IMG/VR virus record: IMGVR_UViG_3300030389_004951
Span: 1-25,360 of that record
Source: a virus
Direction: 5' to 3' (one strand)
DNA length: 25,360 bases
The position numbers and the translations under genes are program-made. The notes below the pieces were generated by a model that ran no database searches, was not told the origin of the DNA, and was given only the letters and a program-made list of their open reading frames with translations. Below are positions 1 through 4,878 of the stretch, piece by piece; the stretch's first letter is position 1, and each line of letters begins with the position of its first letter.

Positions 1-171
1 TTTCCAATTAGGTGTTCCCCATTCATTACGATATTCTGTATCATCACAATCTTGTCCATACGCAACATCTCTTTTGATTTCAGATGTCCTTTGTACATCT
101 TGACTATAACTTAATTGGAAGTTCAGACAAATAAAAAGTATTAGGGTTGTATTCAAAATACCAAATCTCAT
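1..171 (-). CDS. Secreted protein, 5' part only (runs off the left edge)
   Basis: An ATG at 169-171 opens a frame that stays open for 57 codons to base 1. It begins MRFGILNTTLILFICLN and has a classic Sec signal peptide: a short basic start, a hydrophobic core at residues 4-18 and a probable cleavage in SYS-QDV near residue 23. The mature part seen so far is polar and acidic, with one Cys at 42. A strong AGGAG lies at 180-184, 8 nt before the ATG and inside the upstream pilin gene, and this supports the start. The gene overlaps the 3' end of that pilin gene by 68 nt in another frame. Beyond the pilin stop this is the most protein-like frame. I do not recognise the family. Its position makes it the fifth gene of the pilin cassette, so it may be an exported partner of the pilins. 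Confidence 0.72.
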   Translation of the reverse strand, partial: MRFGILNTTLILFICLNFQLSYSQDVQRTSEIKRDVAYGQDCDDTEYRNEWGTPNWK

Positions 172-499
172 TATTCATTCTCCTATGATATAGTTTTGTC
201 CCATCAAACTGCCACTCATTATCTTCATCAGGTATTCCCAAATCAAGAGTGACTATTACACCTCTAGTTCTACCTAATACAGATAGTGGATGTTCAGGCC
301 AAACATCGGTGTCTGTTAATTCTTTTTGAATATCAGCATACAATTCTAACTCTTCCCACAATCGATAAGCAAATTGTTTTTCTGCTTTTAATTCTTCTAA
401 TTCAATTCTTTTTTCAAACTTTGGAATAGCTACAGCACTTAGTATTCCAATCAATAAAATCACTACTACAAGCTCGAATAAAGTGTATCCTTTATTCAC
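104..499 (-). CDS. Type IV pilin-like / pseudopilin protein (131 aa)
   Basis: The N-terminus is a textbook prepilin: MNKG then YTLFELVVVILLIGIL. The predicted prepilin peptidase site follows Gly4, Glu is at +5 (residue 9), and a ~20-residue hydrophobic helix ends in AIPKF. The processed protein would sit in the inner membrane and could enter a type IV pilus or type II secretion pseudopilus. The start is GTG at 497-499, overlapping the upstream TAG by one base (TAGTG), with GGAG 7 nt before it. The globular part shares a WPxHP motif and a later EWxF...HRR..N pattern with the pilin at 957-1388, so the two look like paralogues. It is the fourth pilin gene in a row. No prepilin peptidase or assembly ATPase is visible, so host factors would have to process it. 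Confidence 0.85.
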   Translation of the reverse strand: MNKGYTLFELVVVILLIGILSAVAIPKFEKRIELEELKAEKQFAYRLWEELELYADIQKELTDTDVWPEHPLSVLGRTRGVIVTLDLGIPDEDNEWQFDGTKLYHRRMNNEIWYFEYNPNTFYLSELPIKL

Positions 500-945
500 T
501 AGATTTCTCCAATTATATGTTCCTCATATGATGGACTATCTTCGTCCACATCACTAATAATAAATAGTTTAGTTATATATCCTTGCTCGGATGTATCTGA
601 TTCTATTTCATATTTGAATGGATTTTGATTGGAATTAAATGGCAAATCTCCACTAAACAAATGATTAGGAGTTCTACCATCAGATAATACTATTTGACGA
701 TATTCTCCATCTAACAAATTATTTTCTGGCTCTGTAGGAAGTTGTGGATTACCTTTCATATGTGTCTCTTGATAATATCTTAAAAAGGTGTCTCTGATAA
801 TAGACATATTAGCAAGATTGATTTGTCGTTGGGTATCCATAGTTACATTACTAAAAGTGGGAATAGCAAATGACATTACTACTCCCACTAATGCAATACT
901 AACAACCATCTCTGCCAATGTGAAACCAGCATTTGAGTTTCTCAT
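499..945 (-). CDS. Type IV pilin-like / pseudopilin protein (148 aa)
   Basis: The leader MRNSNAG is followed by FTLAEMVVSIALVGVVMSFA and IPTF. Cleavage is expected after Gly7, with Phe at +1 and Glu at +5 (residue 12). The helix is followed by a ~115-residue soluble domain rich in Asn, Asp and Glu that I cannot assign to a named pseudopilin. A GAGGGG Shine-Dalgarno follows and overlaps the TAG of the preceding pilin gene, 11 nt away. The C-terminal EI codons run into the GTG start of the next pilin, so translation is probably coupled. The helix is less regular than in the 957-1388 protein (a Met-Ser pair in its middle), which fits a minor pilin or pseudopilin rather than a main filament subunit. 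Confidence 0.83.
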   Translation of the reverse strand: MRNSNAGFTLAEMVVSIALVGVVMSFAIPTFSNVTMDTQRQINLANMSIIRDTFLRYYQETHMKGNPQLPTEPENNLLDGEYRQIVLSDGRTPNHLFSGDLPFNSNQNPFKYEIESDTSEQGYITKLFIISDVDEDSPSYEEHIIGEI

Positions 946-956
946 TGGTATCCCCT

Positions 957-1388
957 CTAATCTACAATAGCTTCTCTAGCACCAATTGAACCAACACCAG
1001 CATTGTCACCTGTTTGAACTCCTTTGTCATAAGCCCAAGCATAACGAGTGTTATCTTTTCGTTGGTGTGTGATTTTGTTGGTTGTGGTATTGAATGTCCA
1101 CTCGCCATCGGTATCAGCATTATCAACATCTGTTGAATCGTATCCTACTGGTACTTGGTCTAAAGCATCAAAAGGATGGGTTGGCCAACTCTTTCTACCA
1201 TTATCAAGAAGTTGTTCGACAGCATAGTTTTCCAAACCAGCCTTAACAGAAGATATTATAGCATCTTCTGCAGCCTGTTCTGCTTTGTCTACTACACCAA
1301 CATATCTTGGTATAGCTACTGCTGCAAGAATCCCTAAAATGATAGTAACCATTATTAGTTCTATTAATGTGAATCCTTTGTTATTCAT
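957..1388 (-). CDS. Type IV pilin-like / pseudopilin protein (143 aa)
   Basis: The frame opens further upstream, but the true start is the ATG at 1386-1388. It has GGAG at 1395-1398 and puts the prepilin leader MNNKG at the N-terminus, where it must be. The mature N-terminus FTLIELIMVTIILGILAAVA then IPRY matches classical type IVa pilins and T2SS pseudopilins, with Glu at +5. Residues ~55-60 carry WPTHP, and the end has EWTF...ITHQR.DN, matching the 104-499 protein. The 19-base gap to the upstream pilin and the 11-base gap downstream indicate one operon. It could be a type IVa-like pilin or a GspG/H-like pseudopilin. The sequence does not distinguish these, and there is no visible calcium-site signature that I would trust. 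Confidence 0.87.
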   Translation of the reverse strand: MNNKGFTLIELIMVTIILGILAAVAIPRYVGVVDKAEQAAEDAIISSVKAGLENYAVEQLLDNGRKSWPTHPFDALDQVPVGYDSTDVDNADTDGEWTFNTTTNKITHQRKDNTRYAWAYDKGVQTGDNAGVGSIGAREAIVD

Positions 1389-1407
1389 TGTATTCTCCAG
1401 TCTGATT

Positions 1408-2046
1408 TTAAGGTTGTAATTTTTTGTTAAAGTTCTTTGGACTTTCCAAATCTGCAATATAAAGAATTGGAGAATAGGATTGTTGTCCACTTCCACCACC
1501 AGCAATTACTGTGTAGATATAGTGACCATCCTGGAAAGGTGATTTGATAGCATTACCACCAAACTCATTCAAGAACTCTTCGGCACCAGCTGTAAGATCA
1601 AATGAACCATCATTATCATCATCTTCTGATACATTCACAGAAGAACCTTGTGGTGCTGGTGATTCTAAATTTGCTGTTCCAAACACAGAAGCCCATTTGG
1701 ATGCTTCTTCACTTTCAAAAGTTTCGAATACATCGATACTAGCGAGAAGTAAATCTTCGTTAGCATATCCACCATTATTATCAGGTACACTTTCGTTGTA
1801 CTTTACCTGACCAGGAAATCTACCACGACCTTCTGATGTTACCTTAGCATTATAAAAATTGTTAGCAGATTTCATTATCTTATCGATGTCTGCTAGAGTC
1901 TTCTTCTCTTTTGCACCTTCTCCTACGCCAGAGAACTTAGGTGCGGCAGTAGTAGCAAGTGTTGCCATCATCGCAGTTGTTACTGCAAATTCGGCAAGAG
2001 ACTGGCCTCTTCTACCTTTTAGTTTTTTTCTTAGTTTTGAAAACAT
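1408..2046 (-). CDS. Type IV pilin-like protein, first gene of the pilin cassette (212 aa)
   Basis: The start chosen is the ATG at 2044-2046, with a CGGAGAC Shine-Dalgarno 6 nt upstream. A longer frame beginning at 2097 has no ribosome site and would bury the leader. The N-terminus is basic (MFSKLRKKLKGRRG) and is followed by QSLAEFAVTTAMMATLATTA then APKF. If cut after Gly14, Glu19 is at +5 as in prepilins, although +1 is Gln instead of Phe and the helix is Ala/Thr-rich. QSLAEF also recalls TadE-like pseudopilins. The C-terminal half has Gly- and Asp-rich stretches (SEDDDNDGSFD) and a SPFQDGHYIYTV strand pattern seen in pseudopilin heads. It is the largest of the four, the first behind the promoter region and preceded by a terminator, so it may be the most expressed subunit. 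Confidence 0.78.
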   Translation of the reverse strand: MFSKLRKKLKGRRGQSLAEFAVTTAMMATLATTAAPKFSGVGEGAKEKKTLADIDKIMKSANNFYNAKVTSEGRGRFPGQVKYNESVPDNNGGYANEDLLLASIDVFETFESEEASKWASVFGTANLESPAPQGSSVNVSEDDDNDGSFDLTAGAEEFLNEFGGNAIKSPFQDGHYIYTVIAGGGSGQQSYSPILYIADLESPKNFNKKLQP

Positions 2047-2066
2047 TTTTGTCTCCGTTAGTTGTT

Positions 2067-2223: not shown

Positions 2224-2490
2224 TCAATAAATTACAAACGGTAATTTACTTGTAACAAAATTCCAACAAACAATACCAACAAATGCCACAACACCACCTA
2301 ACACAGTAGCAAAAGCATCAGGATTACTCCAACCACTTGATGAATTATATCTATCATATAACTCTTTACCAAATGCCAAAATACCTAACACTATCCAAGA
2401 ATGTGTTATTGCAAAACCAGCAGCACCAGCCATAAAGTGTAGAAACTTATCAGTTCCCCATTGTAACATAAAATCATTCAATTTACTCAT
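2224..2490 (-). CDS. Small YfiM/VanZ-like membrane protein (88 aa)
   Basis: Two or three hydrophobic segments are visible (about residues 16-41 and 58-80) around a conserved-looking polar framework: D14-K-x-x-H18, then GKELYD at 41-46, and W-x-N-P-D58 followed by a Gly-rich helix. This arrangement resembles the YfiM/DUF2279 and VanZ-like families of small membrane proteins, whose biochemical role is unclear. AGGAG overlaps the upstream TAG (TAGGAG) 6 nt before the ATG. The gene is the last before the terminator. In a phage a small multi-pass membrane protein could be a holin or antiholin, but nothing here proves that. A similar architecture occurs in the 96-residue protein at 4901-5191. Confidence 0.72.
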   Translation of the reverse strand: MSKLNDFMLQWGTDKFLHFMAGAAGFAITHSWIVLGILAFGKELYDRYNSSSGWSNPDAFATVLGGVVAFVGIVCWNFVTSKLPFVIY

Positions 2491-2499
2491 AATATTCTC

Positions 2500-2874
2500 C
2501 TAAAATACATCTTCCGATAAAACATCATCAATAGCACCTTTTATATCCTTATTACTAATATCCAACTCACCATCCATGTCAGCCTTCCAAGTTTCTTTTT
2601 TACTACCATCATAGAATAATGCCATCGATGGAAAATTTCTAAACCTTAGTTTTTTCACAACTTTAGGAGCATCCTCACTTTTAACTCTAATTATTTTACA
2701 ATCTTGATATCCACTAACACCTTTTAGTATCTTTTCATCTACATCTTGTTCTTGCCATTCAGATGAAAAGATAGCAACTACTATTCCACCATTGATTTCT
2801 GATTTAAAGTTCTTGTCATTTACTTGTGAAAATGTAACAGACAGGAATAGTAATAATCTCAATATGTTTTTCAT
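2500..2874 (-). CDS. Secreted thioredoxin-fold protein lacking CxxC (124 aa)
   Basis: A signal peptide (MKNILRLLLFLSVTFSQ, likely cut between Ser16 and Gln17) leads into a ~105-residue thioredoxin-like domain. The first beta strand (GGIVVAIFSSEWQEQD) is where WCxxC normally sits, and here it is SEWQEQ. The cis-Pro loop is visible as RNFPSMALFYDG at about residues 88-99, followed by the usual strand and last helix. Only one Cys (59) remains in the mature protein, so classical disulfide chemistry is unlikely. A binding, chaperone-like or single-Cys role is more plausible. The Shine-Dalgarno AGGAG overlaps the TAG of the MshEN gene upstream. It would act in the periplasm or outside the cell, like other products of this accessory set. 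Confidence 0.72.
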   Translation of the reverse strand: MKNILRLLLFLSVTFSQVNDKNFKSEINGGIVVAIFSSEWQEQDVDEKILKGVSGYQDCKIIRVKSEDAPKVVKKLRFRNFPSMALFYDGSKKETWKADMDGELDISNKDIKGAIDDVLSEDVF

Positions 2875-2883
2875 AACAGACTC

Positions 2884-3525
2884 CTATTTATCCCTTTTCC
2901 TTCGTTCAAGGTCTTTGATATCTTTTTGTAATTCTTTGATGAGTTCTTCATACTCATCTAATGCGTCATACACAGCATCCATATCCTCTTGTAGACCTCC
3001 AACTTGATTCTTGTATTGTTCATAAGACCTTGGCCAATTGTGACCGTCAGGTTTGGATGGATATTCATCCGTAAAAATCTCTTCTATATTTATCTTTGGT
3101 AATTCTTTTGCCTCTTCAATTTCACCTTGTAGAGTGTACCACATACCAATTAATGATGCTAGACCAGTTCCAGCTGCTATCATTGTTTGTACAGATAATG
3201 TGAATTTAGTATCTAATACTTTATCTTCACTTATTTCTATAGGTTCTTTTTTCTTTGATTTTGATTTTTCTTTAGGTTTTTCTTTTATTGGCGTGGGTTC
3301 AGCATGTATTTCTTCTGATTTTTCCTCGTGTTTCTCCGTGTCTGAATCGTGGTTTAATAATGCGTTAGTGATGTCATCAAAGTCGCAAAAACCTTGATCT
3401 ACAAGTATTTCACCAATAGTACGTTTGTCTCCCTTTACCTGAACTTGTAAGGCTTTGTTGAGTTGTCTTTTAGTAATGATATCCTCATCACACAACAATT
3501 TACCGATTTTGATGTCACCATTCAT
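2884..3525 (-). CDS. Membrane-anchored MshEN / T2SS-E N-terminal domain protein (213 aa)
   Basis: Residues 6-29 and 36-59 form two tandem copies of the helix motif of the GspE/PilB/MshE N-terminal domain: K-I-G-x-x-L...I-x(4)-L-x-x-A-L-x-x-Q, then T-I-G-E-I-L-V-x-x-G...I-x-x-A-L. In MshE-type ATPases such tandem motifs bind cyclic di-GMP. Here the leading Arg is Lys and Thr, the first copy has Asp at the Gly position, and the second copy ends in His, so binding is uncertain. A Lys/Glu/Pro-rich linker (60-105) follows, then a transmembrane helix (~108-130) and a C-terminal coiled coil (~172-213). No ATPase core is present. The predicted topology puts MshEN in the cytoplasm and the coiled coil in the periplasm. 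The ATG directly follows the TAA of the Cys-rich microprotein (TAAATG). It could regulate or titrate the host pilus/secretion apparatus. Confidence 0.8.
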   Translation of the reverse strand: MNGDIKIGKLLCDEDIITKRQLNKALQVQVKGDKRTIGEILVDQGFCDFDDITNALLNHDSDTEKHEEKSEEIHAEPTPIKEKPKEKSKSKKKEPIEISEDKVLDTKFTLSVQTMIAAGTGLASLIGMWYTLQGEIEEAKELPKINIEEIFTDEYPSKPDGHNWPRSYEQYKNQVGGLQEDMDAVYDALDEYEELIKELQKDIKDLERRKRDK

Positions 3526-3573
3526 TTATTTTCCACAATTACAATTACAATCACATCCACAACAGTCACACAT
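3526..3573 (-). CDS. Cys-rich microprotein, 15 residues (MCDCCGCDCNCNCGK)
   Basis: The ORF is too short for normal gene finders. It lies between the stop of the beta-barrel-like protein and the start of the MshEN protein. AGGAG (3580-3584, overlapping the upstream TAG) stands 6 nt before the ATG, as good as for any gene here, and the stop TAA abuts the next ATG. Seven of 15 residues are Cys in a C-x-C pattern with Asp/Asn/Gly between them. Such a peptide could bind zinc, iron or copper, but I know of no family it belongs to. It could instead be a leader peptide that couples translation to the MshEN gene. Confidence 0.55.
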   Translation of the reverse strand: MCDCCGCDCNCNCGK

Positions 3574-3582
3574 AATTATCTC

Positions 3583-4878
3583 CTAGTTTAAGAATTGATA
3601 ATTAAGACCAAATTTAATATCGTATGCTGGTCTTTCCCAATAATACAGATAACGACCTTCGGTGAATACACCTAAGTTTTCTTTTATTTTTACACCTAAG
3701 ATTGCACCAATGTCATAATCATTCCAATCGTGCCACATTGGATTCATATACATAAAATCACTTGCTTCACCACCTTCTTCTAAATGAGTTTGATAATGAG
3801 CAGCATTATGATAGGCATGTTTTGAATGACCATAGTGATAAGGTAGCCAATTACCCCAAGCATGTAACCACCACTTTTCATCATAGTGATACCAATCAAC
3901 ACCTAAAACTAAAGATGTTTCACTTTGATATCCCAAGTCTTTTTTTACACCACCTATGTAATTTTCTAACATTTTTGGAAAGTGGTAAATAAAATATTCT
4001 CTATCTGTATAAGCAAATATTCTACCTTCTTCATCTCTCCACAACCAATCGTGTCCCCAATACTCTCCACCTTCATTCCAAAAAGGTCCAGAACCTTCCA
4101 CCTCTCTGATTTCACCTGTTACAGGATCAACCTCGTATAGTGTTCTCTTCTTCCAACCAGTAGGCGAGTTCGGGTCAATCATAGTTGAGTCATACCACAT
4201 ATTATCATCTATACCAAAAGCATCTTCAGCAAAGTTCCACCATTGACCTTTATACCAAGTAGTATCTAATACCATGGCATCAAATCCATACACAGGATGT
4301 TGTCTATGTTTTAGACCAACAGAGAAATGTAGTTTGTTTCCTAATGCCTCTGGTGTTAGATGTAATCTAATGTCACCTTGCCCATAAGCAATATCTTCAA
4401 GACCTAACTCAGTCCATCCAACTTTTGCCATAACAAAGTCGCCAATGTATCTTAACCAATATTCTTGATTTAAGTATTCGTTACCCCATTGTCTACCTTC
4501 TGAGAATTTTATTAAGTATTCCCAACCCTTTACGGGACCGAATGTAGCACTTTCATTTGCATTTTGTTCTGAGCCATCATACCAAACACCACCTTTGCCT
4601 GCAGACTTTACACCTCTTTTAGCTTCGTACTGAAATCTACCAATCTTACGAAGTCCAAATGATGTTTGGAAATCAGGTTTCAATTCTCTTTCAGTTCGTT
4701 CTACTTGCAACACACCAGTTGATAGACCACCAACAATTGCAAATCTATCGTCTTGATAGCGAGGAGCATTTAAACTAAAACTTGAATAAGCTGTGGAATA
4801 CTTAAAAAAGTTAGTAAAAAAGTTCTGACTAAACAAAGATGAGGATAGCAGTATCCCTAATATAATTTTCTTTGACAT
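3583..4878 (-). CDS. Exported outer-membrane beta-barrel-like protein (431 aa)
   Basis: The start used is the ATG at 4876-4878, with AGGAG at 4886-4890. A 17-codon longer frame lacks a ribosome site and masks the signal peptide. MSKKIILGILLSSSLFSQ is a Sec signal peptide with cleavage likely at FS-QN. The mature protein is dominated by alternating aromatic/polar stretches typical of outer-membrane strands, and it closes with YDIKFGLNYQF-LN, a terminal strand with an aromatic residue near the C-terminus. The middle (about residues 340-385) is unusually rich in His, Trp and Tyr (WYHYDEKWWLHAWGNW, then PYHYGHSKHAYHNAAHYQTH). I recall similar unassigned proteins from marine phage genomes but cannot verify this here. 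Possible roles are a receptor mask, a porin-like channel or a virion surface protein. Confidence 0.68.
   Translation of the reverse strand: MSKKIILGILLSSSLFSQNFFTNFFKYSTAYSSFSLNAPRYQDDRFAIVGGLSTGVLQVERTERELKPDFQTSFGLRKIGRFQYEAKRGVKSAGKGGVWYDGSEQNANESATFGPVKGWEYLIKFSEGRQWGNEYLNQEYWLRYIGDFVMAKVGWTELGLEDIAYGQGDIRLHLTPEALGNKLHFSVGLKHRQHPVYGFDAMVLDTTWYKGQWWNFAEDAFGIDDNMWYDSTMIDPNSPTGWKKRTLYEVDPVTGEIREVEGSGPFWNEGGEYWGHDWLWRDEEGRIFAYTDREYFIYHFPKMLENYIGGVKKDLGYQSETSLVLGVDWYHYDEKWWLHAWGNWLPYHYGHSKHAYHNAAHYQTHLEEGGEASDFMYMNPMWHDWNDYDIGAILGVKIKENLGVFTEGRYLYYWERPAYDIKFGLNYQFLN

Follow-up and report, generated by a model that had tools for sequence, protein, structure and literature searches.

MshEN is a small domain that bacteria employ for c-di-GMP sensing in pilus motors. 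It is familiar from pilus and secretion motors, where it forms the head, and is also found fused to bacterial signalling domains (PMC5013675). The locus described here raises the question of what such a domain does on a phage protein that has a membrane anchor and no motor. The window, by which the whole analysed stretch of DNA is meant, is a 25-kb IMG/VR fragment (25,360 nt, IMGVR_UViG_3300030389_004951). The protein, labelled MSH in this report, has 213 aa and is encoded on the minus strand at 2884..3525, with its ATG at 3525 and its stop at 2884; all other window features located below lie on the same strand.

Domain identity and architecture

The proposal that the N-terminus of MSH is an MshEN domain was borne out by profile searches and by modelling. 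Residues 6-56 match the NCBIfam model NF053729 ('c-di-GMP_motif, MshE-related') with an E-value of 1.1e-10 and 41.1 bits, above the curated cut-off of 38 bits; the model is matched by 37/37 aligned homologues at E <= 0.01, and its cut-off is exceeded in 30/30 related records. Compared with the PDB, the MSH-family profile matches T. thermophilus PilF (1.3e-9), PilB structures (6.9e-8 and 7.1e-7) and MshE (0.002), whereas Pfam gave no MshEN/T2SSE_N match up to E 1 for MSH or up to E 10 for residues 1-65. In a template-free AlphaFold model, four helices are placed at residues 3-58 (pLDDT about 78), and the closest structure to this modelled head is that of MshE-c-di-GMP (5htl; Z 8.5, rmsd 2.2 A, 57 residues); the full-length model has a pTM of 0.27, with low confidence outside residues 3-58. 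The likeness is not due to chance, since the profile and fold matches are joined by a dN/dS of 0.15 in the MshEN part, and residues 6-59 are confirmed as a real MshEN domain. The dN/dS is also 0.15 in the TM/periplasmic part, so that purifying selection on MshEN is as strict as on the membrane half of the protein.

The first-pass annotation had described the remainder as a linker, one transmembrane (TM) helix and a coiled coil, with no ATPase. This is supported by the predictions and by a Pfam scan, in which the T2SSE ATPase domain was absent from the 213-aa ORF. The charged linker (residues 60-97; 3235..3348) is variable, with a dN/dS of 0.47 and low pLDDT. It is followed by a predicted TM helix (residues 108-132; 3130..3204), whose hydropathy peak is modest in the window MSH (1.41 over a 19-mer) and clear in another family member (2.12), and by a predicted periplasmic coiled coil (residues 168-212; 2890..3024) in which hydrophobic periodicity is strongest at 3.5. 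An N-in orientation fits the distribution of Lys and Arg, which in the 30 residues flanking the TM helix average 5.6 before it and 2.2 after it. The MSH head is like that of the MshE, PilB and PilF assembly ATPases in its profile match, four-helix fold and motif I residues, and its motif II likewise keeps Gly40 and the hydrophobic positions. Unlike these enzymes, MSH is phage-encoded and membrane-anchored, is without an ATPase and has a 6-residue spacer between the motifs, and most of its members have lost the Arg38 and Gln61 positions.

A half-degenerate c-di-GMP motif

Wang et al. (2016) described MshEN as two 24-residue motifs with a 5-residue spacer, the residues concerned being Arg9, Leu10, Gly11, Leu25, Leu29 and Gln32 in motif I and Arg38, Leu39, Gly40, Leu54, Leu58 and Gln61 in motif II (PMC5013675). 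The tandem motifs noticed at first reading are both present, at residues 6-29 (KIGKLLCDEDIITKRQLNKALQVQ; 3439..3510) and 36-59 (TIGEILVDQGFCDFDDITNALLNH; 3349..3420), but the spacer between them has 6 residues instead of the canonical 5, and motif II departs from the consensus at both ends, with Thr36 in place of Arg38 and His59 in place of Gln61. In motif I of the window MSH, K6, G8, L22, L26 and Q29 fit the ligand-contact pattern, and the equivalent of Gly18 is Asp15. Across 37 members motif I retains K/R6, I/L7, G8, L22, L26 (36/37) and Q29 (37/37), while the residue equivalent to Gly18 is Asp in 36 of the 37. Motif II retains its glycine and hydrophobic positions throughout the family; at position 36, the Arg38 equivalent, Thr is found in 27 members, Ser in seven, Ala in two and Lys in one, and at position 59, the Gln61 equivalent, His in 15, Ser in 12 and Gln in three. 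Judged by these residues, the c-di-GMP motif of MSH is half degenerate, motif I being intact and motif II degenerate in most members. The most divergent member (L050) retains Arg, Lys and both Gln, and the range from this canonical-like protein to the degenerate members constitutes a natural series for loss of c-di-GMP binding.

The idea that MSH senses c-di-GMP, as first put forward, keeps the motif I pattern in its favour; binding in the canonical mode appears unlikely, in the family as in the window protein, because motif II is without the Arg38 and Gln61 equivalents. In a wider form, the head would bind c-di-GMP or another nucleotide and switch a periplasmic module through the linker and TM helix, for instance in the timing of release. 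The invariance or near-invariance of motif I, Gln29 included, and the residues kept in the divergent L050 are consistent with such a role, as is the membrane-bound, cNMP-binding Popeye-type protein encoded one or two genes on in many MSH loci. Moreover, PilF GSPII-B binds at 6 nM with a natural Lys for Arg and with Leu196 stacked on guanine, and its Q218E variant still binds at 460 nM (PMC11731258). However, Arg38 is replaced by Thr/Ser and Gln61 by His/Ser in most members, in addition to the Asp at Gly18; a Ser at the Arg38-type position in rebuilt PilF GSPII-A resulted in complete loss of binding (PMC12002112), and no binding is seen in XpsE, whose changes include R38G/Q61V (PMC5013675). A nucleotide sensor is, on balance, unlikely. 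The non-binding GSPII-A of T. thermophilus PilF shares with MSH one nearly intact and one degenerate motif, its Ser at the start of motif II paralleling the Thr/Ser of MSH, and neither has Gln at the motif II end; it differs in having His33 where MSH keeps the motif I Gln, and in the MSH context, which is that of a membrane protein.

Constant partners and sister phages

MSH relatives are encoded at 54 viral-contig loci; the locus counts given here are not phylogenetically independent, and all records are fragments. The cassette order is tail fibres, (a 96-aa membrane protein), an outer-membrane (OM)-type protein, (a lipoprotein), MSH and a thioredoxin (Trx)-like protein, and downstream of the last come pilins and/or Popeye, or Popeye/holin/TM107. 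The Trx-like gene (2500..2874 in the window) is the invariant partner: it adjoins MSH in 50/50 loci and, counted in reverse, has MSH immediately upstream in 40/40. It encodes a secreted thioredoxin-fold protein, with a Pfam Thioredoxin match of 0.0011, below cut-off, a fold match of Z 11.9 to the S. aureus and B. subtilis thioredoxins, and an N-terminus that by inspection resembles a signal peptide (MKNILRLLLFLSVTFSQ). A redox role is unlikely because the CXXC active site is absent from every aligned member, and a structural or binding role is suggested instead. Equally constant is the upstream neighbour of MSH, a secreted OM-type protein of 431 aa (3583..4878) that gave no family match and whose gene lies upstream of MSH in 47/47 loci. 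The lipoprotein gene is present at 38/47 loci and absent from 9/47, the window showing none; its product, a larger lipoprotein considered as a candidate o-spanin partner, is without a PHROG match. At 2224..2490 lies the gene of an 88-aa membrane protein that weakly resembles YfiM/DUF2279 in Pfam and NCBIfam.

The membrane part of MSH also occurs without the MshEN head. A PilA-bearing relative (G051), which matches MSH weakly and in the C-terminal half only (E 9.7e-5), encodes a TM-coiled-coil protein without MshEN behind its tail-fibre and OM-type genes, at the map position of MSH, and this MshEN-less protein has 28 loci of its own. The TM regions of the two proteins were aligned by hhalign with a probability of 96 (E 4.9e-9, 41 columns), compared with 0.3 for a different TM-coil protein, so that homology and map position both identify it as the membrane part without the head. 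Downstream of the TM protein, sister phages carry several genes in a row for lipoprotein, OM-type and secreted products (L285:5761-8822), and those scanned among such downstream genes gave no NCBIfam family match.

Directly before MSH in the window lies a 15-aa Cys-rich mini-ORF (MCDCCGCDCNCNCGK; 3526..3573), with the Shine-Dalgarno sequence AGGAGA and a stop that abuts the MSH ATG. Mini-ORFs of this kind, about 11-24 aa long and mostly with a strong Shine-Dalgarno, stand directly behind the OM-type gene in 12/51 loci, and at 20/26 sister loci they lie no more than 200 nt ahead of the MshEN-less TM protein (window, L002, L005, L006, L010, L018, L022, L027, L031, L036; L276-L301). When all retrieved loci were scanned, most such ORFs fell within these cassettes. 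Fusion of the mini-ORF to MSH by stop-codon read-through was set aside, the two sharing a frame in only a few close relatives.

Optional downstream genes

The window also carries a cassette of four pilins, PilA-D (1408-2055, 957-1385, 499-945 and 104-499; span 104..2055), three of whose four ORFs contain Pfam N_methyl. The PilA-like protein (1408-2055), with a GQSLAEFAVTT N-terminus, has no convincing family in Pfam, PHROGs or NCBIfam, although viral contigs encode at least 80 relatives. The first-pass annotation had placed MSH next to this cassette and taken the adjacency as a sign of a functional link. The proximity is real but looser than stated, as two genes (Trx-like, 2500-2874; YfiM-like, 2224-2490) intervene before the first pilin, and the functional link did not hold up. 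Of the 30 loci that extend 3 kb or more past MSH, scored over 6 kb, 14 have pilins downstream; PilA is present in 24/40 MSH records, MSH was found at 18/51 PilA loci having at least 5.5 kb of upstream sequence, and of 27 PilA records in which MSH is not adjacent, 25 lack it in full length, these records being fragments. The link is unsupported because the pilins are separable from MSH and the Trx-like gene is its invariant partner; MSH homologues are thus largely found without pilins and with another partner, and co-occurrence in both directions rules out pilins as an obligate partner. In L042 and L039 pilins are located elsewhere in the record, and within the 6 kb downstream at the 30 loci the pilins (14) and a 3-TM holin (10) are mutually exclusive.

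Among the 30 related records, all fragments, no motor ATPase (PF00437) exceeded the cut-off, and neither a T2SSF platform protein nor a GGDEF protein was found. The PF00437 matches below cut-off, in seven records (best 15.6 bits), are mostly in ORFs of about 400 aa that, judged from inspection of related loci, resemble MoxR-type AAA ATPases. A phage-encoded pilus motor, a phage-encoded platform and phage-made c-di-GMP were all rejected accordingly, and since no phage motor was found, any phage pilins must use the host machine. Here an adaptor or decoy for the type IV pilus or T2SS of the host comes into consideration, in which the tethered head would stand in for the host ATPase N-domain on the inner-membrane platform, blocking pili or feeding phage pilins. 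MshEN is indeed the N-domain of PilB/GspE-type motors, pilins lie two genes away in the window and no more than 6 kb away at 14/30 loci, and the phage inhibitory peptides Tip, Aqs1 and Zip, which bind PilB or PilZ-PilB, are precedents for disabling PilB (PMC11656802). They are the nearest functional precedent should the MSH head act on host pilus motors, although no MshEN domain has been described for them (PMC11656802). A block of this kind would mean superinfection exclusion. The separability of pilins and MSH in both directions, the Trx-like and OM-type genes as invariant partners, and the sister phage that combines PilA with an MshEN-less TM protein nevertheless make this role improbable.

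The Popeye-type protein found near MSH (L038:10314-10964 and another 24 loci; 109 viral stretches) consists of an N-terminal membrane part and a cNMP-binding domain (Pfam POPDC1-3 2.6e-14, cNMP_binding 2.7e-14). Its bacterial relatives reach 48% identity, the best being in Bacteriovoracaceae, and INPHARED gave no match. That tethered second-messenger receptor folds, MshEN together with Popeye in many loci, form an envelope-spanning switch controlling a periplasmic/OM module is a quite unlikely reading; if true, the signalling state of the host would gate virion release or exclusion.

The holin (phrog_3427, E 3.3e-28) lies downstream of MSH in 10/30 loci, and MSH itself shares with Rz-type i-spanins and class III holins a predicted topology, N-in with one TM helix and a periplasmic coiled coil. 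A role as a lysis protein proper, i-spanin-like or class III holin-like with a regulatory head, would also suit a gene located behind the tail-fibre genes, and weak spanin matches exist for MSH (Rz-like phrog_739 in 3/37 members, best E 0.025) and for the sister protein (phrog_739, 0.037; phrog_7686, 0.038). These matches are at coiled-coil noise level, no clearly significant sequence match to either group was obtained, and MSH differs in having a cytosolic part of 100 residues that includes a folded domain, and in its Trx-fold partner; with the phrog_3427 family missing from 11/16 records tested and no endolysin of two families in 16 records, a lysis protein is very doubtful. A lysis cassette with a standard endolysin was rejected, Amidase_2 and Phage_lysozyme being absent in the 16 records.

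Phage family and host

In uncultured marine T4-like phages, MSH is a conserved member of an envelope cassette. Its gene is single copy in 30/30 records, and the window carries T4-type baseplate genes; the nearest proteins to its gp6-like product, with identities of about 30-34%, come from Microcystis, Flavobacterium and uncultured phages. Among INPHARED phages no homologue of full MSH or of the Trx-like partner was found, and the C-terminal half of MSH gave a chance-level match only; no MSH homologue was confirmed in bacterial genomes by a pattern-based search that reaches close relatives only. Literature searches covering MshEN in phages, Popeye proteins of phages and phages of Marinimicrobia turned up nothing on the family. 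An 895-aa secreted protein of a sister phage (L273:1537-4221) has a T9SS type A sorting domain at its end (TIGR04183, 5.2e-7), a pointer to a T9SS-bearing host. Together with FSQ-type signal peptides, this domain suggests from sequence features that the host may lie on the Bacteroidota/Marinimicrobia side.

A proposed component of a phage-made envelope module

The explanation that we tentatively prefer is that MSH is an inner-membrane component of a phage-made envelope module, with MshEN as a cytosolic docking or regulatory head. MSH would sit N-in/C-out in the inner membrane, its periplasmic coiled coil pairing with the Trx-like protein and reaching towards OM partners. In favour of this module are the constant Trx-like and OM-type genes and the sister protein at the MSH map position; against it stand the low model confidence beyond the head, the modest TM peak of the window MSH and the loci lacking the lipoprotein. 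The head may be a docking lobe for inner-membrane proteins of the phage or the host; alternatively, it may act late in infection as a nucleotide switch, weak or altered, that determines which state the complex is in. Evolutionarily, the head would have been joined to, or lost from, the phage inner-membrane coil protein of the module, and the pilins would be an optional addition at the locus, not the reason for the MshEN domain. The likely outcome, as the setting suggests, would be a host envelope changed for virion release or for the exclusion of other phages; the tie of the module to lysis is weak because no endolysin was found (two families, 16 records).

In these phages MshEN caps a conserved inner-membrane protein that is under purifying selection and is tied to a CXXC-less secreted thioredoxin fold. 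MSH is in this respect a small, testable system for how phages put a domain made for signalling or docking to new use at the membrane.
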